52,915 bases of DNA from Clostridia bacterium (lineage in GTDB: Bacteria > Bacillota_A > Clostridia > Christensenellales > CAG-138). The DNA lies in NCBI GenBank assembly GCA_017553815.1, contig JAFZJT010000259.1, positions 1-52,915 of the forward strand, in the 5' to 3' direction. The notes under the pieces were generated by a model. That model was not told where the DNA came from. It was given only the letters and a program-made list of their open reading frames with translations, and did no database searches. Positions 1,943-39,658 of this stretch are shown here, piece after piece. The translations under genes and the position numbers were made by a program. The number at the start of each line of letters is the position of its first letter. The first letter of the stretch is position 1.

Positions 1943-3496
1943 TTATACGAGCTTTTTCAGCCCGTCCGTGTCGAGCAGTTCAAATTCCGCGAGCGCTTCC
2001 AGAAGCGCAGAGGCAAGCTTACTTACACCGCCCCGCGAATTGCTCTCGAGGTTCGTGGGCATCAGCGGGTCGTGCAGACTGCGGCGAATCAGGAACCAGC
2101 CGTCGCCATGCGCTTCATCCGCGTCCACGCGCACGCCCTCGAAATTCGGTTCAACGAGGAAGAAGCCCTCTTTTTTTGCAAAATGCGCCTTAACTTTTTC
2201 AAGCACCTTCTCGGTGTAGGCCGCGAAGTCCTCGGTGTTCACGCCCATGCGCACCTCGGTGCTTTCCGCAGGCTCCGCGAGGGTCGATATGAGATTATTC
2301 AGCGTTTCGCCGCGCCTTGCCGCGCGCACGAACTCGATGAGTATCTTAACGATAATATACGCGCCGTCATCGAGAAAATAGTTTTCGGATAAGGCGCCGT
2401 GCCCGCTCGTTTCCATAGCGAAGATGGCTTTTTCGCCCGCGTCCATAAGGCGTTTGGCTTCGTTTATGACGTTGCGATAGCCCCTCTTGAAGCGGTGGTG
2501 GCGGCAACCGAGATTTTCGATGAAGCTCGCAAGCCCCGTGGAGGTGATGGAATCGGTAACGACGGTTATCTTGCCGTATTCGCGCTCGAGTATCGCGGTC
2601 ATCAGCGCGATAAGGCGGTTCCTGTCGAGCGCAAGCGCACCGCTTTCATTCGGCAACACCGCGCCCGCTCTGTCCACGTCCGTATCGAAGATTATGCCGA
2701 GCTGCGCGCCCGAAGTCTCCACGGCCTCCACTATGCTCTTCATCGCCTCCTCGTTTTCGGGGTTCGGCTGATGATTCGGGAAATTGCCGTCGGGCTCGAG
2801 GAATCGGCTTCCCGAAATATCCGCACCGAGGGGCTCAAGCAGGCGCGTTGCGAAGAAGCCGCCCGCGCCGTTACCCGCATCGACCACGATGTGCATACCC
2901 GAAAATGGCTTCGCGCCCTCGTTTTCGCCAAGCGCGGTCAGAATCTTCTCCTTCAAGCCGTCGATATGCGGGGTCATTATATCGGTCTTGCCGCTCTCGC
3001 CCCGCTTCTCGGCGGCGGGAAACTCGCCCTTTTCCGCCATTTCGAGGATAGCTGCGATATCCTGCTTTTCAAGCCCGCCGAGCGCCTCGCCGCCCTTTTC
3101 GGGGCTTCCGAGGAAGAATTTCATGCCGTTGCGCTCCATGGGAAGGTGGCTCGCTGTCGCCATAATGCCCGCGTCGAAGCGGAGCTCGTTTACGCAGCAC
3201 ATAAACATTGCGGGAGTGCTCGCCATGCCGCCGTCAAAGGCGTTCGCGCCGACCGAGGTTATGCCTTTTATCAGCCACGAAACGAGGATATCGCCGTTTA
3301 TGCGCGAATCTCTGCCCAGCCCTATGCGAAGCGCCGAAACGCTTTTTTCGAGCTTCTTTGCAGCATAAAGGGCGAACGCCGCGCCGATGCGCGTTACGCT
3401 TTCCTCGGTAAGGTTGACGGGCTTGCCGCCCGAAATCTCGATAAGCACGCCGCGAATATCGCTTCCGTTTTGAAGTTTTTTATAGTCGATAGCCAT
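1943..3496 (-). CDS. Phosphoglucomutase/phosphomannomutase family protein
   Basis: Alpha-D-phosphohexomutase (517 aa) interconverting hexose 1- and 6-phosphates. The phosphoserine loop is ATASHLPMERNG with S116. The metal loop FDTDVDRAG lies near residue 270 and the sugar-binding loop METSGHGAL near 360. The ASHLP (rather than ASHNP) active-site form and the longer length point to a divergent PGM/PMM subgroup and not to glmM, so the sugar is uncertain. The start at 3496 has GGAGG 5 nt upstream. Downstream of mreB, it may supply hexose-1-phosphate for envelope polysaccharide. A hairpin with a T-run separates it from mreB. Confidence 0.88.
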   Translation of the reverse strand: MAIDYKKLQNGSDIRGVLIEISGGKPVNLTEESVTRIGAAFALYAAKKLEKSVSALRIGLGRDSRINGDILVSWLIKGITSVGANAFDGGMASTPAMFMCCVNELRFDAGIMATASHLPMERNGMKFFLGSPEKGGEALGGLEKQDIAAILEMAEKGEFPAAEKRGESGKTDIMTPHIDGLKEKILTALGENEGAKPFSGMHIVVDAGNGAGGFFATRLLEPLGADISGSRFLEPDGNFPNHQPNPENEEAMKSIVEAVETSGAQLGIIFDTDVDRAGAVLPNESGALALDRNRLIALMTAILEREYGKITVVTDSITSTGLASFIENLGCRHHRFKRGYRNVINEAKRLMDAGEKAIFAMETSGHGALSENYFLDDGAYIIVKILIEFVRAARRGETLNNLISTLAEPAESTEVRMGVNTEDFAAYTEKVLEKVKAHFAKKEGFFLVEPNFEGVRVDADEAHGDGWFLIRRSLHDPLMPTNLESNSRGGVSKLASALLEALAEFELLDTDGLKKLV

Positions 3497-24824: not shown

Positions 24825-27017
24825 ATGGAGTTTTCCGAAAAGCTTGTTCGCAAGCAGCTTGAGAGGATGAAGCCCATCCTTGCCTCGCAGTCGATAGAGC
24901 ACATGCGCATCGGGCAGGATCGCGTGGGCGCCATCCTTGCAAAAACCAAGCGAAAGGACGTTGATATCTCGGATGTGCCGCATCCGAGGCTTCTTCTTGC
25001 GCTCGCTTCGCCGCACGATGAGCGGCGCGGCGGCATTATACTCTATCTTCACGGCGGCGGCTACGCCTGCGGCGGGCTCGAATACGCAAAGGGCTTTGCG
25101 TCAGTGCTCGCCGCGGAATGCGGAGTCAAGGTGACCTGCCTTGCCTACCGCCTCGCGCCCGAAAACCCCTACCCCGCCGCACTTGAGGACGCGCTTAACG
25201 CATACAGGCATCTGCTATCAAAGGGCTATCTTCCCGAGCGCATAACGCTTTGCGGCGAAAGTGCGGGCGGTGGGCTTTGCTATGCGCTCTGCTATAAGCT
25301 CAGGGAGCTGCGGCTTCCGCTTCCGAGCGGCATCATCGCCATATCGCCGTGGACGGATCTCACCATGAGCGGCGACAGTATCATCTATAATAAGGAAAAC
25401 GACCCGAGCCTCTGCCTTGAACAGCTCGAGAGCTATGCAGGCTGCTATACTTCCGATACCGCAGAACCGCTCGACCCCTTCGTTTCCCCGCTTTTCGGGG
25501 ATATGGCGGGGCTTCCGCCTTCGCTCATCTTCGCAGGCGGCGACGAGATTCTACTCGATGACGCTCTGAGGCTTCACGACAGGCTTATTGAAAGCGGCTG
25601 CGCGTCAAGGCTTCGCGTTGCCGATAGAATGTGGCACGGCTATGTTCTCTACTGCTTAAAGGAGCATCACGTGGATTTTGAGGAGATGGAGCGCTTTCTT
25701 CAGCATACCGCCACGGTTCCGCGAAAGCTCCGCTGGATGCGGCTCGACAACGCCGCAAAGATCTTCCCCGCCGCGAAGCGCCGATATTGGAACAACTATT
25801 TCCGCCTTTCGGCGACGATGTTTGAGGACGTGGATCGCGCTGCGCTCAAATCCGCAATGGACGTTACCATGCGAAGGTTCCCGTCGATAGCGGTTCGGCT
25901 CTGCAGGGGCTTTTTCTGGTACTATCTGGAAGAGATCTCATCCGCTCCCGAGATATCCGAGGAGCAGCCCTGGCCGCTTGCGCACACCCCGTTCGACGCG
26001 ATAAACAAATGCGCTCTTCGGGTCATCGTTTACGGCAGGCGCATCGCCGTTGAATTCTACCATGCGCTGACCGACGGAACGGGCGGCATGATATTCTTAA
26101 AGACCCTTCTTGCCGAATATATCGAGCAGAAATACGGGGCAACGCTCCCCTGCGAATGCGGCGTTCTCGACCGCCACGAGGAGCCCCGCGCCTCCGAGAT
26201 GGAGGACAGCTTTGAAAAATACGCGGGAAAGGTCAGCCTCAAGCGAAACGCGAGCACGGTGTATAAGCTCAAATGCACGCAGGAGCCGATCGGCGTTCGG
26301 CATCTCACCACCTTCATCCTCGACGTTGACAGGGTGCTCGTGCTCTCAAAGAGCATGGGGATTAGCCTCACGGTCTGCCTTGCGAGCTGTATGCTGCTTG
26401 CGCTTCAAAACCTTCAAAACGAGCAGATACCCGATAAGAAGAAGCAGCGCCCGATAAGGGTCGTGGTGCCCGTCAATCTTCGGCGGCTCTTTCCGAGCGA
26501 GACCCTTCGCAATTTTGCGCACGTGGTGATGCCCGAGATCGACCCGCGCATGGGCGATTTCGAATTTGACGAGATAGCGAGCGCAGTCAAGCATCAGCTC
26601 GGGCTTCTTGCGACCGAGAAGAATCTTCAGGCCATGTTCACCCCGAACGTGAACGCGGAGAGGAACCCTCTGCTTCGCGTTATGCCGCTCTTTGTTAAGA
26701 ATATGGCTATGAAGCTAATCTACGACACCGTTGGCGAGCGCACGAACTGCTTGAACGTTTCAAACCTCGGCGCGGTGGAGCTTCCCGAGGAGATGAAGCC
26801 CTTTGTGGACAGGTTCGATTTCATACTTGGCGTTCAGGCGACCAAGCCCAACAACTGCGGCGTGCTCTCCTACAAGGGCAAGCTCTATGTGAACTTCATC
26901 AGAAACACGGTCGAGCCGAGCCTTGAGAGGCATTTTCACGCCGTTTTGAAGGCTATCGGGCTTCCCGCGCTCGTTGAGAGCAATTTCGCTTCAACGGAAA
27001 ACGCGCGGCGCAAATGA
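24825..27017 (+). CDS. Alpha/beta-hydrolase fused to a condensation-type acyltransferase
   Basis: 730-residue two-domain protein. Residues 1 to about 300 are a hormone-sensitive-lipase-type esterase: oxyanion motif LYLHGGGYACGG, nucleophile LCGESAGGG, acid region FAGGDEILLDDA and catalytic His in DRMWHGYVLY. Residues about 310-720 resemble CoA-dependent alcohol/wax acyltransferases of the condensation superfamily, with the HxxxDG motif in FYHALTDGTGG and VVVPVNLRRLFPS later on. One chain may thus hydrolyse and re-transfer an acyl group, for example in lipid or acyl-ester remodelling; the substrate is unknown. The start at 24825 is preferred (GGGAG 5 nt upstream), and a TTG at 24813 is possible. 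Confidence 0.85.
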   Translation: MEFSEKLVRKQLERMKPILASQSIEHMRIGQDRVGAILAKTKRKDVDISDVPHPRLLLALASPHDERRGGIILYLHGGGYACGGLEYAKGFASVLAAECGVKVTCLAYRLAPENPYPAALEDALNAYRHLLSKGYLPERITLCGESAGGGLCYALCYKLRELRLPLPSGIIAISPWTDLTMSGDSIIYNKENDPSLCLEQLESYAGCYTSDTAEPLDPFVSPLFGDMAGLPPSLIFAGGDEILLDDALRLHDRLIESGCASRLRVADRMWHGYVLYCLKEHHVDFEEMERFLQHTATVPRKLRWMRLDNAAKIFPAAKRRYWNNYFRLSATMFEDVDRAALKSAMDVTMRRFPSIAVRLCRGFFWYYLEEISSAPEISEEQPWPLAHTPFDAINKCALRVIVYGRRIAVEFYHALTDGTGGMIFLKTLLAEYIEQKYGATLPCECGVLDRHEEPRASEMEDSFEKYAGKVSLKRNASTVYKLKCTQEPIGVRHLTTFILDVDRVLVLSKSMGISLTVCLASCMLLALQNLQNEQIPDKKKQRPIRVVVPVNLRRLFPSETLRNFAHVVMPEIDPRMGDFEFDEIASAVKHQLGLLATEKNLQAMFTPNVNAERNPLLRVMPLFVKNMAMKLIYDTVGERTNCLNVSNLGAVELPEEMKPFVDRFDFILGVQATKPNNCGVLSYKGKLYVNFIRNTVEPSLERHFHAVLKAIGLPALVESNFASTENARRK

Positions 27018-29893: not shown

Positions 29894-31879
29894 ATGAAGA
29901 CCCGTAAGCTCCTCGCCGCAATCATCGCACTCGCGATGGTATTTGCGGCAATACCCGCTCTCTCCCTTGCGGAAGGCACGGCAGTGCTTGCCGGCGAAGC
30001 CGCCGCGATGAAGAAGCTCGACAATACCTGGCTCGCGCTTGAAAAAGTCGAGGCCGATGCCATGGCTTCCGGCATGAGCCGCAACCAGGTTATCAACGCC
30101 GTTTATCAGGCTGCGCTCAACCTTGCGCACGTCGATCTCGACGGCTTTTCCGATTTCGACGCCGACGGCTTCTTCTTCACCGTTGACGGTATGTACTGCG
30201 CATACGACTACCGCCTCCGCAACGAGATAGACAACAGCGCGGAGCCCGTTGAAGAGAAGATCGTTTTCGTCAAGGGCAGCGGCGAAGCTCAGCGCGACGC
30301 AGGCAGCCCGAACGTTTTCCTCGTTGCGCCCTACTACGGCCACGACGGCAGCTTCACCGATCAGTATAAGATCGAGGCGCAGTCCATCGCCAACGAGACC
30401 GGCGGCGACTATCTGCTCATTCAGAGCACCGCTGCGACCGGCCCCGCCATCGCCGAGAACTACCCCGACAAGGGCGTGGTCATCTACGACAGCCACGGCA
30501 CGCAGGCGGGCACTTCCACCTACCTCTGCCTGACCACCAACGCGGGCATCACTCAGGAGGACTACAACAACGGTTGGGCGGTTCGTGCGGGCAGCGCCGC
30601 CTATATCGACGGCCGCTATATCGAGCATCACGTCAGCACCCGGCTTTCCGATACCTTCGTTTGGATGGCAATTTGCGAGGGCATGAAGCGCCAGGGTCAG
30701 GGCACCACCGGCAGCGCGCTGCTTCGCGCGGGCGCGGGCGGCGTTTACGGCTACTCCCAGAGCGTTACCTTCGCGGGCGACTATGAGTACGAAGAGGCAT
30801 TTTGGACTATGATGAAGGACGGTGCGACCGTTGCCGAGGCCTATGCCAACATGGTCGACGTTCTCGGCATCCCCGACCCCTACGGCGACGCCTATCCCAT
30901 CGTTATGAGCCCCGTGGACGCCTTCCCCTCCAATCCCGACGGCCCCCAGACCGTTTACTGCGATTGGACCCTCTACGGCGGTCTTCCCCCCGTTGAGCTT
31001 ACCAACTACAGCCTCAGCGCGACCGACCTGCGTCTTTACGAAACCTATGAATACACCGTGACCTTCGAGCGCGTTCCCGCAAACGCCAACGACTACACGC
31101 TCGTTTGGACCAGCTCCGACCCCGCCGTTGCTTCCGTTACGGGCAACGACCGCAGGGCGACCATCTCCGGCATCTCAGCCGGCAGCGCCGTAATCACCTG
31201 CGCGGTTATGAGAAACGGCGAGCTCGCGGGCACCTGCACCGTTGACGTTACCGTTGTTCCCGACACCGCGCTCTACGATTCGCTCAACGCGGACGGCGGC
31301 AGCCTCCAGTTCGTTTCAAACGGCAGTTACCGCTTCATCGCCGAGGAAGGCGACGGCAGGCTCTACGCCGTTTCCGGCAACCGCAGCGTCAACCTGAGCT
31401 CCTCCTTCCTCACCCTCAGCCTTCCCATGGAGGCCGGCGAGACCCTCAGCTTCGACTATTTCTACAGCACCGAGCAGGGCTACGACTTCTACTACTTCAA
31501 GGTCAACGGTCAGCAGATTCAGCGCTTCTCCGGCGAGTCCAACGGCTGGAAGAGCTACACCTACACCGCCGCGAGCACCGGAACATTCAACTTTGAGTGG
31601 AGCTTTGTTAAGGACGAGTACGTCGGCGACGGCGAGGACTGCGTCAAGATCGACAACGTTCGCTACTCCGGCACGGGCGTTCCCGCTCCCGACGGCGACA
31701 TCGACGGCAGCGGCACCGTTAGCGTTGTGGACGGCATCATGGCGCTCCGCATCGCGATAGGTCTCGTTTCCCCCACCGAGCAGCAGCTCGCGCACGGCGA
31801 CCTTGACGGCGACGGCAGTATCAGCATGCCCGACGCCATCACCATTCTGCGCATTGCGATGGGTCTTATCGAGAGCTAA
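29894..31879 (+). CDS. Secreted caspase-fold peptidase-like protein with Ig-like and dockerin domains
   Basis: 661 residues. Signal peptide residues 1-26 (LLAAIIALAMVFAAIPALS). Residues about 110-350 look like a caspase-fold cysteine peptidase of the C11/C25 type: H201 in VIYDSHGTQAG and C261 in VWMAICEGMKRQG. Residues about 375-455 are a bacterial Ig-like domain (VWTSSDPAVASVTG). Residues 465-590 form a beta-rich module. Residues about 598-661 are a type I dockerin with two calcium loops (GDIDGSGTVSVVDGIMALRI and GDLDGDGSISMPDAITILRI). A perfect promoter and strongly C-ending codons suggest abundant product. No cohesin is in the window. Peptidase activity is inferred. Confidence 0.82.
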   Translation: MKTRKLLAAIIALAMVFAAIPALSLAEGTAVLAGEAAAMKKLDNTWLALEKVEADAMASGMSRNQVINAVYQAALNLAHVDLDGFSDFDADGFFFTVDGMYCAYDYRLRNEIDNSAEPVEEKIVFVKGSGEAQRDAGSPNVFLVAPYYGHDGSFTDQYKIEAQSIANETGGDYLLIQSTAATGPAIAENYPDKGVVIYDSHGTQAGTSTYLCLTTNAGITQEDYNNGWAVRAGSAAYIDGRYIEHHVSTRLSDTFVWMAICEGMKRQGQGTTGSALLRAGAGGVYGYSQSVTFAGDYEYEEAFWTMMKDGATVAEAYANMVDVLGIPDPYGDAYPIVMSPVDAFPSNPDGPQTVYCDWTLYGGLPPVELTNYSLSATDLRLYETYEYTVTFERVPANANDYTLVWTSSDPAVASVTGNDRRATISGISAGSAVITCAVMRNGELAGTCTVDVTVVPDTALYDSLNADGGSLQFVSNGSYRFIAEEGDGRLYAVSGNRSVNLSSSFLTLSLPMEAGETLSFDYFYSTEQGYDFYYFKVNGQQIQRFSGESNGWKSYTYTAASTGTFNFEWSFVKDEYVGDGEDCVKIDNVRYSGTGVPAPDGDIDGSGTVSVVDGIMALRIAIGLVSPTEQQLAHGDLDGDGSISMPDAITILRIAMGLIES

Positions 31880-32053: not shown

Positions 32054-33289
32054 ATGGCCTACAGCGAGCTTATAAAAAATTTCAACCGCACGCGGGAATA
32101 CATGCGCCAGTTCTACGTTTTCGGCTTTCGCAGCCGCGACGAATACGGCATGAAGAGCCCGCGCTCCTACGACGACGAAAAGCGGCGCGTGGAGAGCTGG
32201 CTCATGGAATACATGCGCTTTCGGCACACCCACGACGGGAAGAACGTTTTTCTTTCGATAGACAGCAGGGCAGCGCATTTCAATCCGCTCCACAAGGCAT
32301 GGCGGGCTAAGAGCTTCACCGACCTTGATATAACGCTTTATTTCCTTATTCTCGATATCCTAAGCGCGCCCGGTATCAAGCTGACGCTCCGCGAGATAAC
32401 CGATGGGATAGAAAAACGGCTCTCCGCGTTTTCAAAGCCGCGCTTTTTCGATGAATCGACCGTTCGCAAAAAGCTCAAGGAATATGAGCTCGAGGGCGTC
32501 ATCGTCTCCGAAAAGCGCGGACGCTCGCCCGTTTACAGGCGAGTCGAATCGCTTCCGCCCGTCGATGCGAGCCTGCTTTCGTTCTTTTCGGAGGCATCTC
32601 CCTGCGGCGTAATCGGCTCGTTTTTGATAGATAAATGCGGAAAACGGGATGAGAGCTTCCGCTTCAAGCACCATATAATCACCTTTGCTATGGACGAGGA
32701 GACGGTCTGCTCGCTCTTTGACGCGATGCGTGAAAAGCGCTTCGTTTCGCTCGAGGCGCTAGACAGGGCGGGTGGATGCGCTATTGAAAGGGTCGTGCCC
32801 CTCAAGATAATGCGCGGCGTGCAGTCCGGAAGGCAGTATCTCATGGCGCATACCGAGCGGGGCAGGATGCGTCCCTATCGGCTCGACAACGTGCTGAGCG
32901 TAAAGGCGGAGGAAAACTGCCCCGATTTCGACGCGCTGAGGGCTGACCTTGCTTCTATGCGCAGGCATCTTTGGGGCGTCAGCACGCACAACAGCGGCGG
33001 CGAACGCCTGCAACGCGTTGAATTCACCATTCGCTACGACCCGAGCGAGAAGCATATCCCCGAGCGGCTCGAGAGGGAGAAGCGTTGCGGCACGGTTGAG
33101 CATTTGGACGAAGCGCACAGCCGCTTTTTCGCGGAGGTTTACGACGCTTCGGAGCTCATCCCTTGGATTCGGAGCTTCATCTGCAGAATAGAGTATCTCA
33201 GCATCTCGGATAAGCTCCTTGAGGCGCGCTTTCGCGACGATTTAAGCAAAATGTATGCGCTCTACGGCATTGGAGGTGGAAAGGAATGA
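32054..33289 (+). CDS. WYL-domain transcriptional regulator (first of pair)
   Basis: 411 residues. The N-terminal 180 residues contain a winged-helix-like part (DESTVRKKLKEYELEGVIVSEKRG). Residues about 215-290 form a WYL domain (FVSLEALDRAGGCAIERVVP, then QYLMAHTERGRMRPYRLDNV), and the C-terminal extension has the usual ELIPWIRSF. WYL domains bind ligands, in some cases nucleotides or nucleic acids, and regulate defence or RNA-repair loci. The stop overlaps the next WYL gene by 4 bp (ATGA). AAAGGA precedes the start. Position upstream of the structured RNA and Ro-like gene suggests it controls them. Confidence 0.88.
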   Translation: MAYSELIKNFNRTREYMRQFYVFGFRSRDEYGMKSPRSYDDEKRRVESWLMEYMRFRHTHDGKNVFLSIDSRAAHFNPLHKAWRAKSFTDLDITLYFLILDILSAPGIKLTLREITDGIEKRLSAFSKPRFFDESTVRKKLKEYELEGVIVSEKRGRSPVYRRVESLPPVDASLLSFFSEASPCGVIGSFLIDKCGKRDESFRFKHHIITFAMDEETVCSLFDAMREKRFVSLEALDRAGGCAIERVVPLKIMRGVQSGRQYLMAHTERGRMRPYRLDNVLSVKAEENCPDFDALRADLASMRRHLWGVSTHNSGGERLQRVEFTIRYDPSEKHIPERLEREKRCGTVEHLDEAHSRFFAEVYDASELIPWIRSFICRIEYLSISDKLLEARFRDDLSKMYALYGIGGGKE

Positions 33290-34200
33290 TATTCAGCGAG
33301 CTTTACAGCGCGTATTATACCGTTGTTGCGAATCTCATCGAAATCGCGCTCAGCAGGCCCGTCACAAGGGAGGATATCGCGCGCGAAGCCTCCGAGCACG
33401 CCTTTGATGAGAGCGCCTTTTATATCGAGCAGGCGCTGAGCGAGGAGCGCTGGCAGGTGCTGACCAAAGATGGTGAAACGCCGCTTGAAGGCGCGCCGAG
33501 CGCGCCGCCGACCCTGCTTGAAAAGCGCTGGCTCAAGGCGGTTTTGCTCGATCCGCGGGTGAAGCTCTTCGGCGCGGATATCGAGGCTTTTCCTATGCTT
33601 TTGGGCATCGAGCCGTTGTTTACAAAGGACGATTTCGAGGTTTTCGACAGCTACGGCGACGGCGACCCCTACGACGACCCCGACTATATCGATAGATTCC
33701 GTCTAATACTTTCCGCCCTGCGCGAAAAAAGGCCGCTCGATCTGCTTGTCAACAACCGCAGCGGAAGGCAAAGCCGCATAACCCTGATGCCCGAAGCGCT
33801 CGAATACTCCGAGAAGGACGATAAATTCAGGCTCATCGGGAGCGGCTCGCGATTTGGGGGCGTTGTGAATTTTGCGAGGATAGCGAGCGCCAAGCTCCAC
33901 GAGGGCGATTTCAGAGCGGCGAAGGGCGCAAAGCGGCGCATAAAGGAGGTCTGCTTCGAGCTGTACGACCGAAGAAACGCGCTTGAACGGGTGCTTCTTC
34001 ACTTCGCGCATCTTGAAAAGCAGACCGAAAAAACGGGCGATAGGACCTATCTTGTGACTCTCAAATACGACGAGAGCGACGAGACGGAGCTTGTGATAAG
34101 GCTTTTATCCTTCGGGCCGATGATAAAAGTTGTCGAGCCGGAGAGCTTCGTTTCATTAATAAAACAAAGACTTTTAAAACAGATGGATTGCGAGCTTTAA
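33286..34200 (+). CDS. WYL-domain regulator (second of pair)
   Basis: 304 residues. Helical N-terminal part (REDIAREASEHAFDESAFYIEQAL), an acidic linker (DSYGDGDPYDDPDYIDRF), then a WYL-like domain from about residue 145 (ILSALREKRPLDLLVNNRSG, RITLMPEALEYSEKDDKFRLIGSG) and a C-terminal extension ending FGPMIKVVEPESFVSLIKQ. It is translationally coupled to the first WYL gene. The proteins are different enough to form a heteromeric regulator. The stop codon lies inside a terminator hairpin. Confidence 0.85.
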   Translation: MIFSELYSAYYTVVANLIEIALSRPVTREDIAREASEHAFDESAFYIEQALSEERWQVLTKDGETPLEGAPSAPPTLLEKRWLKAVLLDPRVKLFGADIEAFPMLLGIEPLFTKDDFEVFDSYGDGDPYDDPDYIDRFRLILSALREKRPLDLLVNNRSGRQSRITLMPEALEYSEKDDKFRLIGSGSRFGGVVNFARIASAKLHEGDFRAAKGAKRRIKEVCFELYDRRNALERVLLHFAHLEKQTEKTGDRTYLVTLKYDESDETELVIRLLSFGPMIKVVEPESFVSLIKQRLLKQMDCEL

Positions 34201-34217
34201 AGCTCGCAACTTTTTTT
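34189..34217 (+). terminator. Perfect palindromic terminator of the WYL operon
   Basis: TTGCGAGCTTT (34189-34199) is exactly complementary to AAAGCTCGCAA (34200-34210), followed by CTTTTTTT. It includes the stop codon and separates the WYL transcript from the RNA locus. Confidence 0.92.
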
Positions 34218-34242
34218 CCGTGTTTTTTCCGTTTTCCTGCCA

Positions 34243-34248
34243 TATAAT
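34243..34248 (+). promoter_or_regulatory. -10 element of the structured RNA
   Basis: Exact TATAAT. The -35 region (about 34220-34225, GTGTTT) is poor, so an activator may be needed, for which the WYL pair upstream is the obvious candidate. Transcription would begin near 34255. Confidence 0.6.
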
Positions 34249-34356
34249 TGCGGCATAAACGAAGGACGCGGACGGCATGGCCGCAGTTTTAAGGAGTTAT
34301 CGTAACAAAACCCCGCATCCGCGTTTACATCCCCGTGCGGGGAACCTTGGGCGGAA

Positions 34357-34410
34357 AAGACACACACAGCAAGCTTCACGATCTCATAGGAATCGCAAAT
34401 TTCGTGCCTT
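34357..34410 (+). ncRNA. RNA module M1
   Basis: Closing stem AAGACAC (34357-34363) with GTGCCTT (34404-34410), six of seven pairs with one A-C mismatch. ACAGCAA at 34366-34372. Then a hairpin CGAT/ATCG (34379-34382, 34392-34395) whose loop contains GG, D-arm-like. It is the shortest module (54 nt) and has no T-arm. Confidence 0.7.
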
Positions 34411-34425
34411 GTAACAAGCCCGCAG

Positions 34426-34507
34426 AAGGCGCATACAGCAAACGCATGGTAAGGAAGCCTTTGGCCGAGGCCGAGGCTCGGCGGTTCGATTCCGCACACG
34501 GCGCCTT
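34426..34507 (+). ncRNA. RNA module M2, with canonical T-arm (tRNA/Y-RNA-like)
   Basis: Closing stem AAGGCGC (34426-34432) with GCGCCTT (34501-34507), perfect 7 bp, the length of a tRNA acceptor stem. ACAGCAA at 34435-34441. A GGTAAGG stretch (34448-34454) resembles a D-loop. The central hairpin is AGCCT/AGGCT (34456-34460, 34474-34478). The T-arm is GCGG-TTCGATT-CCGC (34481-34495) with an exact 7-nt T-loop. Five extra bases between T-arm and acceptor strand, the 4-bp T-stem and the lack of an anticodon arm of normal form exclude an ordinary tRNA. Confidence 0.8.
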
Positions 34508-34525
34508 GATAATGCGGACGAAAAA

Positions 34526-34605
34526 AAGACGCGTACAGCAAAGCCGTCAGGGTCGGCAAACGCCTCGGGAAACCGAACGCGCTTGCCGATAGGAAAAGGC
34601 GTCTT
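34526..34605 (+). ncRNA. RNA module M3
   Basis: Closing stem AAGACGC (34526-34532) with GCGTCTT (34599-34605), perfect. ACAGCAA at 34535-34541. The inner helix TCGGCAA/TTGCCGA (34553-34559, 34583-34589) carries TCGG-GAAA-CCGA (34565-34576), a GNRA tetraloop hairpin. A competing D-arm-like GCCG/CGGC hairpin (34543-34546, 34554-34557) has a GGG-containing loop. Confidence 0.78.
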
Positions 34606-34717
34606 GTCCTCTCCGCCCAAGGTTCGCCGCACGGGATGACAGAACGGAGCCGAAGCGAATTCGTCGGAAGGCTTCCGCAATCCGCACAGCTCGCTTGTAA
34701 AAGTCCGCTCGCGCCAA

Positions 34718-34824
34718 ACGGCACTCACAGCAATTTCACGGCTGCCGTCGCGAAAAACCTTCGCGGCAAGGAGTTCAACTCCCCTATTCCCCCGCTGCGG
34801 CTCGGGAAGCGATAAAAGTGCCGT
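34718..34824 (+). ncRNA. RNA module M4
   Basis: Closing stem ACGGCAC (34718-34724) with GTGCCGT (34818-34824), perfect. ACAGCAA at 34727-34733. Inner hairpins: CGCGAA/TTCGCG (34749-34754, 34760-34765) and GGAG-TTCAA-CTCC (34770-34782), the latter T-arm-like. The 3' closing strand can instead pair downstream as CCGTG-TTCG-CACGG (34821-34834), a UUCG hairpin, so opening and closing of M4 could be switched. Confidence 0.75.
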
Positions 34825-34883
34825 GTTCGCACGGGCGGCAACACCAAAACCAACGATAAATAATTAAAGAAAGGGGCAGACCA

Positions 34884-36368
34884 ATGCTTGACCATCTGAT
34901 GAACGAATCCAATATTACCTTGACCGAAAACGGCGCGGTGACCCACTCCACCACGGGCTCGGACTGCCTCGACTTCTTCGCCTCGGCGGGCGCGCTGAGA
35001 AGCGCGAGCGAGGGGCAGATACTCAAGCTCTTCATCCGCGCCTACAACGAAGACGCGGACTCCGCGATGAAGCTGATCTTCTTTGCGCGCGATATTCGCG
35101 GCGGCCTCGGCGAGAGGCGCGTTTTCCGCACCGCGCTCAAATGGCTTGCCGAGAATAAGCCCGAGTCCGCAAGGAAAAACCTTGAAAGCATCGCCGAGTT
35201 CGGCAGATACGACGATCTGCTCGTTCTTATCGGCACGCCGCTCGAGGCGGACGCCGTTCAGCTCATCGACGCGCGGCTCGGCATGGATATCGCCGCGATG
35301 CGCCTTAGTAAGCCCGTTTCCCTGCTCGCAAAGTGGCTGCCCTCGGTGAACGCCTCCAATAAGGAGACCGTTCGCACCGCAAAGCGCCTTGCAAAGCTTT
35401 TGAAGATGAGCGAGGCGGAGTATAGGAAGCATCTTTCGGAGCTTCGCGCGTATCTTCGCATAATCGAAAACGCTCTGCGTGAGCGCGATTATTCCTTTGA
35501 TTACGAAAAGCAGCCCTCGCGGGCGCTGTTCAAATACCGCGAGGCATTCCGCCGCAATGACCTCGAGCGCTACTCGGCCTTCCTTACGGCTTCTATAGCG
35601 GGCAAGGCCAAGCTGAACGCCTCGAACGTGTACCCCTACGAGCTCGTTCAGACCTATCTCGCCTCATCCGTTTTCGGACGGCATGCCGATATTCCCGAGA
35701 AGGAGCGCGCCGCGCTGAACGCGACCTGGGAGGCTCTGCCCGATTACGGCGCGGATGGCGATATGCTCGCCGTTGTGGACACCTCGGGCTCCATGTATAG
35801 CGGGAGCGCGGGCGCTCCGCTGCCCGCCGCGGTGGCTTTCTCGCTCGGGCTGTACTTCGCAGAGCGCAACAAGGGCGCGTTTCGCGGGCATTTCATCGAG
35901 TTTTCGAGGAAGGCGAAGCTGATTAAGCTCAAGGGCGAGACCTTCTGCGACAGGCTTCAGTACGCCGCGTCCTTCTGCGAGGTCGCAAACACCGACGTGG
36001 ATGCGGTATTCAACCTGATCCTGCGCACGGCGGTCAAAAACAAACTGCCTCAGCAGGAGTTGCCGCAGAAGCTCGTTTTTATCTCCGACATGGAGTTCGA
36101 TATGTGCACCAATAACTCCTCTCTCTCGAATTTCGAGAACGCGAAGCGCAGGTTCGCGGAGCACGGCTACGCGCTTCCGAGCGTCATCTTCTGGAACGTG
36201 GCTTCGAGGCACGGTCATCAGCCCGTTCGTATGAACGAGCAGGGCGTGACGCTGGTTTCGGGCGCGTCCCCCGTCCTCTTCTCGATGGTCGCGGGCGGCA
36301 GCATAACGCCGATGAAATTCATGCTGAACGTGCTTGAGAGCGAGCGCTACGCGGGGATCGCCGCATAA
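34884..36368 (+). CDS. Ro60-like RNA-binding protein (DUF2828/TROVE-type helical repeats plus vWA)
   Basis: 494 residues. N-terminal helical-repeat part: STTGSDCLDFFASAGALR, then the family core FARDIRGGLGERRVFRTALK and SIAEFGRYDDLLVLIG, and LLAKWLPSVNASNKETVRTA. The C-terminal von Willebrand A domain begins near residue 290, with the MIDAS motif AVVDTSGSMY and later VFISDMEFDM. This is the DUF2828 architecture, related to Ro60/TROVE proteins that ring-bind misfolded RNAs and Y RNAs. GAAAGGGGC lies before the start. The structured RNA directly upstream is the natural partner. A role in RNA quality control or RNA-damage response is inferred. Confidence 0.85.
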   Translation: MLDHLMNESNITLTENGAVTHSTTGSDCLDFFASAGALRSASEGQILKLFIRAYNEDADSAMKLIFFARDIRGGLGERRVFRTALKWLAENKPESARKNLESIAEFGRYDDLLVLIGTPLEADAVQLIDARLGMDIAAMRLSKPVSLLAKWLPSVNASNKETVRTAKRLAKLLKMSEAEYRKHLSELRAYLRIIENALRERDYSFDYEKQPSRALFKYREAFRRNDLERYSAFLTASIAGKAKLNASNVYPYELVQTYLASSVFGRHADIPEKERAALNATWEALPDYGADGDMLAVVDTSGSMYSGSAGAPLPAAVAFSLGLYFAERNKGAFRGHFIEFSRKAKLIKLKGETFCDRLQYAASFCEVANTDVDAVFNLILRTAVKNKLPQQELPQKLVFISDMEFDMCTNNSSLSNFENAKRRFAEHGYALPSVIFWNVASRHGHQPVRMNEQGVTLVSGASPVLFSMVAGGSITPMKFMLNVLESERYAGIAA

Positions 36369-36385
36369 GGAATCGAATACGAAAA

Positions 36386-36421
36386 GCGGCGGGTAAAGCG
36401 GTTGCTCTGCCCGTCGTTTTA
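36386..36421 (+). terminator. Terminator of the Ro-like gene
   Basis: GCGGCGGG (36386-36393) and CCCGTCGT (36410-36417) form 8 pairs including two G-T, followed by TTTT. It lies 18 bp past the stop and may also act on the convergent gene. Confidence 0.7.
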
Positions 36422-36462: not shown

Positions 36463-37233
36463 TTAAACCTTCCCTATCGGTATCTGCGCGCGCATAGCGC
36501 GCACCTCAGAGGGGTCAATCGAAACTGTCAAAACGCTTTCCTCCGCGCCCGCTCGCGCAAGCACCATTCCCCACGGGCTGACGGCTATCGAGTTGCCGTA
36601 GGAAACGTATTTTGCGCTTTCATCCCTCGCGGGGGCGCAGCCGAAGGTGAAAACCTGTTCATCCACGGCGCGGGCGCGGAAGAGAAGCTCCCAATGCATC
36701 GGCCCCGTGGTCATGTTGAAGGCGGCGGGAACGGCCAGAAAGTCGATACCATTCATTCTATGTATGTATGCACCAAAGCGGATATCGAAGCAGATACAAA
36801 CGCCGAATCTTCCGAACGGGGTGTCGAATGTGCTTATCCCCTCGCCCGAGGAAAAGATATCGGACTCGCGGTAACGCTGACCGCCCTTGATGTCCACATC
36901 AAAAAGATGTGCCTTTCTGTGCTTCAAAACGAGCTTTCCGTTTGGATCGAAAACAAAGCAGGTGTTGTAGAGCTTTTCGCCGTCCCTCTCGGGTATGCTT
37001 CCGCCGATAAGGTAGGCTCCGCAGGTCTTGGCGGTTTCACAAAGCATTTTTGCGGCGGCTCCATTCTCGCTCTCCGCGCTTTGAAGAATCGAGCCTTTTT
37101 CATACGGACAGCAGAACATCTCGGGAAGCATTATCACATCCGCGCCCTTTGAAAGAGCGGCAATCTTGGCGGCATGCTTCAGGTTCTCCGCCTTATCTGG
37201 AACGACCTTCATCTGTATCAATGCGATATTCAT
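36463..37233 (-). CDS. Carbon-nitrogen hydrolase (nitrilase superfamily, omega-amidase-like)
   Basis: 256 residues from the ATG at 37233 (a GTG at 37239 is also possible; GAGGTGG is adjacent). The catalytic triad of the family is visible: E38 (MLPEMF), K107 (LKHRKAHLFD) and C148 (VCICFDIRF). NMTTGPMHWELLFRARAVDE is typical of the omega-amidase/Nit2-like branch, which hydrolyses alpha-ketoglutaramate-type amides. The C-terminus stops at AQIPIGKV, roughly 10-15 residues shorter than usual, where relatives continue with a basic and aromatic tail. It may be a recent truncation. It appears to be monocistronic. Confidence 0.88.
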   Translation of the reverse strand: MNIALIQMKVVPDKAENLKHAAKIAALSKGADVIMLPEMFCCPYEKGSILQSAESENGAAAKMLCETAKTCGAYLIGGSIPERDGEKLYNTCFVFDPNGKLVLKHRKAHLFDVDIKGGQRYRESDIFSSGEGISTFDTPFGRFGVCICFDIRFGAYIHRMNGIDFLAVPAAFNMTTGPMHWELLFRARAVDEQVFTFGCAPARDESAKYVSYGNSIAVSPWGMVLARAGAEESVLTVSIDPSEVRAMRAQIPIGKV

Positions 37234-37250
37234 ATCCACCTCATATTAGA

Positions 37251-38476: not shown

Positions 38477-38812
38477 CTGCAACGATTTAGCTATTAAAGC
38501 TCTCCTATTTTTTCTCCGAAATTATTATATCATTATTATTCGTTTTTTGCAACACTCTTTTTGAAAAATTGAATACTTTTTCTCAGATTGATATTTCGTC
38601 CGTTTTTCGCTTCCTCGGGCGGGCGCGAAAAAAAAACAAAAAAAGTTTATAAAAGCGACTACAATTTTTTCGCAATATGTGTTATGATATAGTGGTATTT
38701 ATGGGTATTATGGATAAGCATTGTATTTTGCAGGGCATGCAAAGCTGTTTTTATTGAAAATGCAGATTATTTTGCATTTCGCAGTGTATGCTTTTGCAAC
38801 AAGGAGGACTTG
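38477..38812. other. AT-rich divergent promoter region
   Basis: Separates the divergent regulator and cdaA. It is AT-rich with poly-A runs (38628-38645). Possible -10 sequences for cdaA occur near 38683-38695 (TATGAT, ATATAG), but no convincing -35 pair is seen. No small ORF or RNA is recognised. Confidence 0.4.
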
Positions 38813-39658
38813 ATGCATTTTGATGAGATCGTGAGCGCGATAAGAAACGGTCTCGATCAGCTCCGCTTTCAGGATCTGCTCGACATTCTTATCATTGCTT
38901 TTATTATATATAAAATCATCGACGTTTCGGTAAACTCCAGGGCCTTTCAGCTTTTGAAGGGGCTTGCCGTGTTGCTCATCATAATGCTTTTGAGCGCGGT
39001 ATTCAATCTCTATACCGTCAATTATCTGCTCAATACCCTTCTTGTTTCAGGTATCGTTATAGTTATAGTGCTGTTCCAGCCCGAGATCAGGCGCGGACTT
39101 GCGCATCTCGGCAGATTCCGCTTCAATCTTGCGGGAAGAACCGAGGCGGACGGCGCGGATATCGTTCGCGAGATGACCTCCGTGCTGATAAGGCTCTCAA
39201 AGCGCAAGGTCGGCGCGCTGATCGTTATCGAGCGCGACACCCCGCTTGATGAATACCTCCCCACCGGAACCAGCGTTGACGCGCATATCACAGGCGCGCT
39301 TTTAGAGAATATCTTCGAGCCCAACACTCCGCTGCACGACGGCGCGGTCATCATCCGCGACGGCCGCATACACTATGCCGCCTGCGTGCTGCCGCTCTTC
39401 AGCGACCCGAATATCTCCAGGGAGCTCGGAACGAGGCATCGCGCGGCGCTCGGCATCTCCTCCGTTTCGGACTGCATAACCCTGGTCGTTTCCGAGGAAA
39501 CGGGCGTTATCTCATACGCCGAAAACGGCAAGCTTACCCGCTATGTGGACAAGGCCGCGCTGACCGAGCTGCTCGAGAGCGTGTTCGTGCAGGAGGAAGC
39601 CGAAAAACCGATCTCAGCGTTTACAAAGAGGTTGTTTAAAAATGACAGCAAACGATAA
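38813..39658 (+). CDS. cdaA: Diadenylate cyclase CdaA
   Basis: 281 residues. Three N-terminal spans (LLDILIIAFIIYKIIDVSV, LLKGLAVLLIIMLLSAVFNL and LLVSGIVIVIVLF) place the cyclase domain at the membrane. The DAC domain shows LHDGAVIIRDG and GTRHRAALGISS, the catalytic DGA and RHR motifs, for c-di-AMP synthesis from two ATP. The start at 38813 is 5 nt after AAGGAGG, and a TTG codon precedes it. It overlaps cdaR by 17 bp. c-di-AMP controls potassium and osmolyte uptake and wall homeostasis in Firmicutes. Confidence 0.96.
   Translation: MHFDEIVSAIRNGLDQLRFQDLLDILIIAFIIYKIIDVSVNSRAFQLLKGLAVLLIIMLLSAVFNLYTVNYLLNTLLVSGIVIVIVLFQPEIRRGLAHLGRFRFNLAGRTEADGADIVREMTSVLIRLSKRKVGALIVIERDTPLDEYLPTGTSVDAHITGALLENIFEPNTPLHDGAVIIRDGRIHYAACVLPLFSDPNISRELGTRHRAALGISSVSDCITLVVSEETGVISYAENGKLTRYVDKAALTELLESVFVQEEAEKPISAFTKRLFKNDSKR

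Follow-up and report, generated by a model that had tools for sequence, protein, structure and literature searches.

Y RNAs are said, after Chen 2014, to lie beside Ro genes in many bacteria and in mycobacteriophages. In Salmonella, the rsr-yrlBA-rtcBA operon is induced after DNA damage with tRNA cleavage (PMC7790460, PMC8394870), and in Deinococcus a Y RNA links Rsr to PNPase (PMC7790460), according to the parts of these papers that were available. The locus described here lies in a stretch of 52,915 nucleotides (the window) from a Clostridia bacterium of the Christensenellales (GenBank assembly GCA_017553815.1, contig JAFZJT010000259.1), in which a gene for a DUF2828 protein is preceded by an array of small structured RNA modules and, further upstream, by two WYL genes. 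The original prediction, made from the letters of this DNA, could match the arrangement to no described system; that claim falls, since bacterial Ro60 with Y RNAs is a known theme of which the locus is a variant, set in the context of RtcB RNA repair. Judged from sequence, it probably combines a predicted RNA-binding ring (DUF2828), akin to the human autoantigen Ro60, with a Y-type RNA set of its own, controlled by a putative damage-sensing WYL pair.

By analogy, the nearest studied parallel is the Salmonella operon, where, in the text available, a Ro protein, Y RNAs and the RtcB ligase also come together with a damage-linked regulator. Here, however, the WYL pair stands where that operon has RtcR (RtcA and RtcR were not searched for in this study), the array precedes the Ro gene, and no RtcB gene lies near the window copy. 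The likeness to YrlA (RF02553) and to Rsr/Ro60 proteins of the TROVE type is that of a Ro-fold protein beside RNAs closed by a stem of their two ends, which are partly tRNA-like with T and D loops; the YrlA consensus, too, has CUUGU in its 3' strand. The differences lie in the protein, which is DUF2828 and not TROVE, in the ACAGCAA stem signature, in the arrays of one to nine modules, and in the order of the Clostridial tRNA-like cargo (acceptor remnant, D, anticodon, T), whereas YrlA has T before D. This is a real and widespread system that resembles bacterial Ro60/Y-RNA complexes and, judging from its phage members, seems to be related to them, but which is set apart by failure in TROVE and YrlA tests, by the stem signature, array layout and tRNA-mimic topology, and by the regulator. 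It appears to represent an arm of the RNA-repair apparatus that has been little described.

Upstream of DUF2828 the modules follow a common plan: the strand AAGRYRCN, a nucleotide n, ACAGCAA, a cargo of about 20–160 nt and the complementary strand N'GYRYCUUG. This plan was compared across 81 leaders, those of the window and of 80 fetched DUF2828 loci, the latter being the best-scoring of at least 481 confirmed relatives in one-per-species genomes, mostly metagenome-assembled Clostridia (two of the loci, L009 and L010, overlap in sequence). Within 1.5 kb upstream of the gene, 146 of 209 exact ACAGCAA sites have a perfect 8-nt complement downstream, compared with 3 of 209 when the stem letters are shuffled and 10 of 137 ACAGCAA sites elsewhere in the same loci. 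At least seven of the eight stem pairs are standard in 204 of 208 sites, and in these 204 modules the changes are compensatory: pair 4 is G-C in 123 and A-T in 75, pair 5 C-G in 146 and T-A in 49, and pair 6 G-C in 99 and A-T in 93. Absence of covariation had been named in advance as grounds for abandoning the original prediction; the stems do covary across loci. Because of this covarying pairing, the module region is argued to be RNA, even though mechanically called open reading frames cross it on both strands. Diversification of stems within an array, as a guard against mispairing, was considered and ruled out (26 of 583 stem pairs are identical, compared with 24.2 expected by shuffling).

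A scoring scan at 12 bits or more finds 306 modules in 156 kb of leaders (81 loci). In 1.28 Mb of control sequence from the same loci it finds 13, which were not inspected one by one and some of which may be genuine. The training set of the scanner was these same loci, and the independent evidence comes from a hold-out test, six new genomes, phages and a plain pattern test. When trained on one half of the loci and tested on the other, the scanner detects modules in all 80. With a threshold of 16 bits the count is 301 modules, between one and nine per leader (mean 3.7), with ACAGCAA kept exactly in 207 (about two thirds).

In the window itself, a covariance model (Infernal) built without it recovers exactly four sites at E≤1 among the 52,915 bases of both strands, which bears out the ACAGCAA modules that had been noticed there. 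Module 1, with a degenerate stem, lies at 34356–34412 (21.7 bits held out; E 0.01), module 2, with T-loop cargo, at 34425–34509 (29.0 bits; E 2.2e-6), module 3 at 34525–34607 (30.6 bits; E 0.0063) and module 4, proximal to the Ro gene and with a T-loop motif, at 34717–34826 (22.4 bits; E 4.1e-5), these E-values being rough; like the other features of the locus, they are on the forward strand. They occupy a non-coding stretch of about 630 nt, without an evident gene, between the WYL pair and the Ro gene, and 57 nt separate module 4 from the ATG of the latter. Positions 34250–34880 fold better than all of 20 shuffles (z -3.9), in keeping with the highly self-complementary non-coding region originally described. 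Rfam at its gathering scores and ARAGORN identify no named RNA in the stretch, and at E≤10 there are chance-level matches only; a comparison of the leader DNA with plasmids gave no match.

An outer clamp helix, with arms of 24 nt at 34332–34355 and 34612–34635, encloses modules 1–3 and scores 60.0 in the window, against at most 30.5 in eight shuffles. Clamps of 21–24 nt enclose all or part of the array in the window, L001 and L002, and that of L001 differs in sequence while still pairing perfectly. As a general feature the clamp was rejected: it is strong only in these three (60.0, 59.0 and 49.5, respectively), and across the 81 loci 23 exceed all eight of their own shuffles, mostly weakly (mean 24.2 compared with 20.8).

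In an even sample of 398 genomes across the phylum, seven have DUF2828. L028 comes from one of the seven; the other six share no 40-mer with the 80 loci, and each has at least two scan matches (G158 and G185 resemble each other closely, and one L182 match is weak, at 13.4 bits). Among the 80 loci, L028 belongs to Anaerotignum lactatifermentans DSM 14214 and L012 to Merdimmobilis hominis An559. Modules therefore stand beside the Ro gene, as Y RNAs do, in all 80 loci and all seven phylum genomes. The plain module pattern matches five of the 398 genomes, all among the seven carriers and at that locus, and the reversed pattern matches none. TROVE-type Ro genes are found in nine other genomes of the 398, with no ACAGCAA module near them in the eight regions examined (the ninth gene had an in-frame stop), and TROVE is absent from the six DUF2828 genomes searched for it. 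In five of the eight TROVE regions there are YrlA-like matches below the Rfam gathering score. Sub-threshold YrlA matches in Clostridia genomes were rejected as Y RNAs because the sites sit in tRNA clusters.

The Ro-like protein (34884–36368) consists of 494 residues with DUF2828 and DUF7788, the latter a von Willebrand factor A (vWA) domain. A likely ribosome-binding site precedes the gene (34871–34876), and a terminator-like hairpin with a 13-bp outer stem follows it (about 36383–36420), missed by a simple terminator scan but seen in a separate look; the DUF2828-vWA gene with its own terminator is as first read. Structure prediction assigns the protein with confidence to the Ro60 fold, in which a ring of helical repeats is closed by a vWA domain. 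A first model, from 12 close sequences, was poor (predicted local distance difference test score, pLDDT, 70.3), yet it matched only Ro60 chains at E≤0.001. The vWA motif DxSxS is present, with D299, S301 and S303 invariant in 55 sequences, and these residues presumably form the metal-ion-dependent adhesion site (MIDAS). The TROVE/Rsr profile (PF05731) does not match the protein, for which DUF7788 and DUF2828 are the only matches at E≤0.001. The family is large (7,943 relatives among 7,999 candidates scored). A literature search on DUF2828 returned no title on bacteria or phages, and none on Y RNA arrays with DUF2828 was among the matches listed, although an earlier description may exist.

The two WYL genes (32054–33289 and 33286–34200) are coupled, as first read, and overlap by 4 nt. 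The first, a likely transcription regulator, has a WYL domain (PF13280) exactly at the Pfam cut-off (21.8 bits; PADLOC WYL 5.4e-13); for its partner, Pfam gives a match to the WCX end alone, below the cut-off (23.3 compared with 23.9; PADLOC WYL 3.6e-6). The predicted terminator of the pair is found at 34188–34209, as a 9-bp stem with a T run after it. Downstream, the exact TATAAT at 34243–34248 is a candidate -10 of the array transcript, and a promoter scan finds no acceptable -35, as had been noted. A terminator scan over 2.7 kb gives six terminator-like sites compared with 4.5 expected, which alone is weak evidence. Homologues of the first WYL protein occur in 64 and of the second in 67 of the 80 DUF2828 loci, usually in the order WYL1-WYL2-array-Ro (the pair points away in L058, L065 and L070), and in bacterial loci the view of WYL pair, RNA array and Ro-like protein as one recurring unit is upheld. 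PafBC and DriD are WYL regulators that respond to single-stranded DNA, according to the available parts of the sources (PMC11804915, PMC12340889). The adjacent and recurrent pair may be compared with PafBC, which is a heterodimer; the likeness is one of domains only, from matches at or near the cut-off.

RtcB lies near 60 of the 80 loci by tblastn, in 48 of which it starts 1.5–2.0 kb past the Ro start codon, and was confirmed by Pfam in the two loci tried. Eight loci have RlaP nearby, a polymerase-beta protein whose name refers to RNA repair (Pfam checked in one). Module and Ro gene, with the WYL pair and RtcB in most loci, are grouped together. In addition, ARAGORN finds 21 tRNA genes outside the modules in 10 of the 81 leaders (L004, L009, L010, L019, L020, L033, L045, L064, L065 and L071); 17 encode CCA, several are tRNA-Phe, and 11 sit between two modules, in all ten leaders. 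In L009, from a Mogibacterium metagenome-assembled genome, a strong ROOL RNA (2677–3251; 310 bits, E 1.3e-70) adjoins 24 tRNA-model matches (two overlapping modules), RtcB, Y-like modules and DUF2828, and this region looks like a phage-type tRNA cluster. The neighbours of the locus in the window are ordinary: genes for a Big_2-domain protein (29894–31879), a carbon-nitrogen hydrolase (36463–37239) and a CdaA-type diadenylate cyclase (38810–39658).

DUF2828 genes are also carried by 676 of 50,697 phage records, of which 13 were read closely. A scan at a low threshold (8 bits), with a stem-and-motif search, finds modules within 1.5 kb in nine of 12 named phages: two mycobacteriophages, Felixounavirus H12, two staphylococcal phages, phiSHEF13, Campylobacter F207, Bacillus 2S-4 and an unverified faecal scaffold. 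The mycobacteriophage and Felixounavirus modules score only 11–17 bits, yet have perfect 7-bp stems. Among 80 viral loci from IMG/VR, which fall into 59 groups, a module lies within 1.5 kb in 42 at 16 bits or more and in 47 at 12 bits, and no module is on the opposite strand in any of the 80.

In Listeria phage cka15, three modules lie upstream of CKA15_055. This DUF2828 protein was found in purified particles (20 peptides, 57.1% coverage; PMC12282133), and the phage may package its Ro protein. The authors of that study suspected Rsr and Y RNAs, citing Chen 2014 for Y RNAs beside Ro genes in bacteria and mycobacteriophages; the modules are not identified in the part of the text that was available, where the most abundant RNA region (26,236–26,727) is left unexplained (PMC12282133). 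The modules were rejected as that abundant RNA, being at about 25.3–25.6 kb. ROOL RNA (RF03087) is matched in Listeria phages cka15 and P100 (E 2.2e-18 and 4.8e-16; 90.1 and 86 bits compared with a gathering score of 99.1), at L166 4958–5509 (OR088597.1, about 26.2–26.7 kb) and L128 2456–3007, and in cka15 it coincides with the abundant region as reported there.

The placement of the modules would also suit a cis-acting leader, by which Ro controls the translation or stability of its own Ro(-RtcB) mRNA while Y RNAs never arise as free molecules: the proximal module is on the same strand, directly before the ribosome-binding site, and in about 90% of the 80 loci its end falls 20–131 nt ahead of the start codon (median 35.5). 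This explanation is nevertheless unlikely. Up to nine differently folded modules per leader exceed the needs of a feedback switch, the RtcB gene splits the array from the Ro gene in five loci (L012, L032, L048, L050 and L055), and the modules are downstream of the Ro gene in the two mycobacteriophages, Felixounavirus H12 and the two staphylococcal phages; known bacterial Y RNAs, moreover, act in trans, according to the available part of a review.

The modules of a leader have one docking stem in common and differ in cargo. By simple motifs, the 301 modules include 65 with a T-loop and 17 with a second conserved hairpin (15 on a GATGC stem). By this crude motif, T-loops are present in two of the four window modules and in at least one module of 52 of the 81 loci, and the class is enriched in the gene-nearest module (36 of 81, compared with 29 of 220 further out). 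Chen 2014 reportedly describes a tRNA-like domain in at least one Y RNA per species. An alignment of 30 of the 65 T-class modules (A2), picked by eye for length and likeness, reveals a tRNA-like body on the docking stem, in normal tRNA order: a 3-bp acceptor remnant, U8-A9, a D arm with GG, an anticodon arm and a T arm with UUCGANU. Its covariation describes that class only: 18 of 24 pairs change on both sides, and 93.0% of cells pair, compared with 80.2% when shuffled and 34–46% when slid. The permuted YrlA body, with the T arm before the D arm, is not that of the Clostridial T class. Having no acceptor end, the mimic should not be chargeable. A second alignment (A3), of 22 picked from 37 modules with an AAGATGC stem, defines another type of cargo, in which a GGTGAAA hairpin is conserved that may be a further motif resembling a T-loop.

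Twenty of the 30 T-class sequences retain an anticodon arm whose loop has 7 nt, and together with the real tRNA genes between modules in ten leaders this would fit decoys, the modules mimicking tRNAs to occupy anticodon nucleases while RtcB mends the real ones; a competitive-inhibitor role has been proposed for YrlA (PMC7790460, available part). A decoy role is even less likely than the cis-acting leader. The 20 readable loops hold 11 different triplets with no conservation, which rules out a decoy of specific anticodon, and most modules are not tRNA-like by the simple motifs. Because the triplet varies, the elbow rather than decoding appears to be kept. It is very improbable that the modules represent degenerate tRNA genes or a family of DNA-level repeats without a role in Ro biology: ARAGORN does read some as odd tRNAs (17 calls overlap a module), but the stem is held by compensatory change and not by sequence, placement is strand-specific in the 80 viral loci, and module presence tracks DUF2828 genome by genome.

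On the same stem, some phages carry cargo permuted as in YrlA, with the T arm followed by a closed acceptor hairpin and then the D arm, in single-sequence folds: phiSHEF13 (L210), the mycobacteriophages (L206, L216), Felixounavirus (L207) and Bacillus 2S-4 (L212). Rfam YrlA matches fall inside two modules of phiSHEF13, an Enterococcus phage (E 6e-7 and 8.4e-4; 44.9 bits compared with a gathering score of 69). Because of these phage modules, cargo likeness as well as position ties the ACAGCAA modules to Y RNAs.

Several results weigh against a Ro ring with its own Y-type RNAs under a WYL pair. The 52.9-kb window contains no RtcB gene and gives no match to the YrlA model (RF02553), and RtcB was not seen in 20 of the 80 loci, six of the 80 ending early downstream. 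By the crude motif 29 of the 81 leaders have no T-loop module, and cargo is recognized by neither simple class in 219 of the 301 modules. Recurrence of the modules at homologous loci, which the original prediction called for, is complete in the bacterial loci scanned and partial in viruses: none is nearby in three of the 12 named phages (Vibrio D482, Aeromonas PX29 and an Erwinia phage) or, at 12 bits, in 33 of the 80 IMG/VR loci, ten of which contain, at some point in the locus, the motif with a less strict stem. In the 81 phage loci searched, no WYL homologue was found and RtcB is present in only two; phages therefore share the Ro-RNA core and not the whole operon.

In the mechanism proposed for the Ro ring and its Y-type RNAs, the WYL pair would sense nucleic-acid fragments, as PafBC and DriD sense single-stranded DNA, and would then activate the array-Ro(-RtcB) transcript. 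The modules may be excised or act in place, with Ro docking each through the stem, ACAGCAA and CUUG. The cargo, whether a tRNA elbow mimic or another fold, could gate the Ro ring or tether tRNA-handling enzymes, the latter role being modelled on the Deinococcus Y RNA that links Rsr to PNPase. Ro would hold RNA that is broken or misfolded, probably tRNA, until it is ligated by RtcB or degraded; RtcB, RlaP, the tRNA mimics and the tRNA genes lying among the modules point to such tRNAs as the most likely clients. As the modules are in the 5' leader, leader-bound Ro could also limit its own synthesis.

More tentatively, DUF2828 may represent a second and distinct Ro lineage that uses an RNA code of its own, in which the AAGRYRC-ACAGCAA...CUUG stem marks cargo. 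The arrays, of up to nine modules, would then serve as a stock of interchangeable cargoes, made up of unpermuted tRNA mimics, mimics permuted as in YrlA and unknown folds; this stock would couple one ring to varied tRNA-handling partners and be shared between bacterial WYL-RtcB operons and phage tRNA clusters. These findings suggest a function for the large unannotated DUF2828 family, and provide a short signature by which its likely RNA partners can be located in both bacteria and phages, among them an unpermuted tRNA mimic unlike the YrlA model. They make testable, in culturable gut species and phages, what bacterial Ro proteins do with Y RNAs, and how Clostridia may sense RNA damage, through the WYL pair, and mend it, through RtcB.

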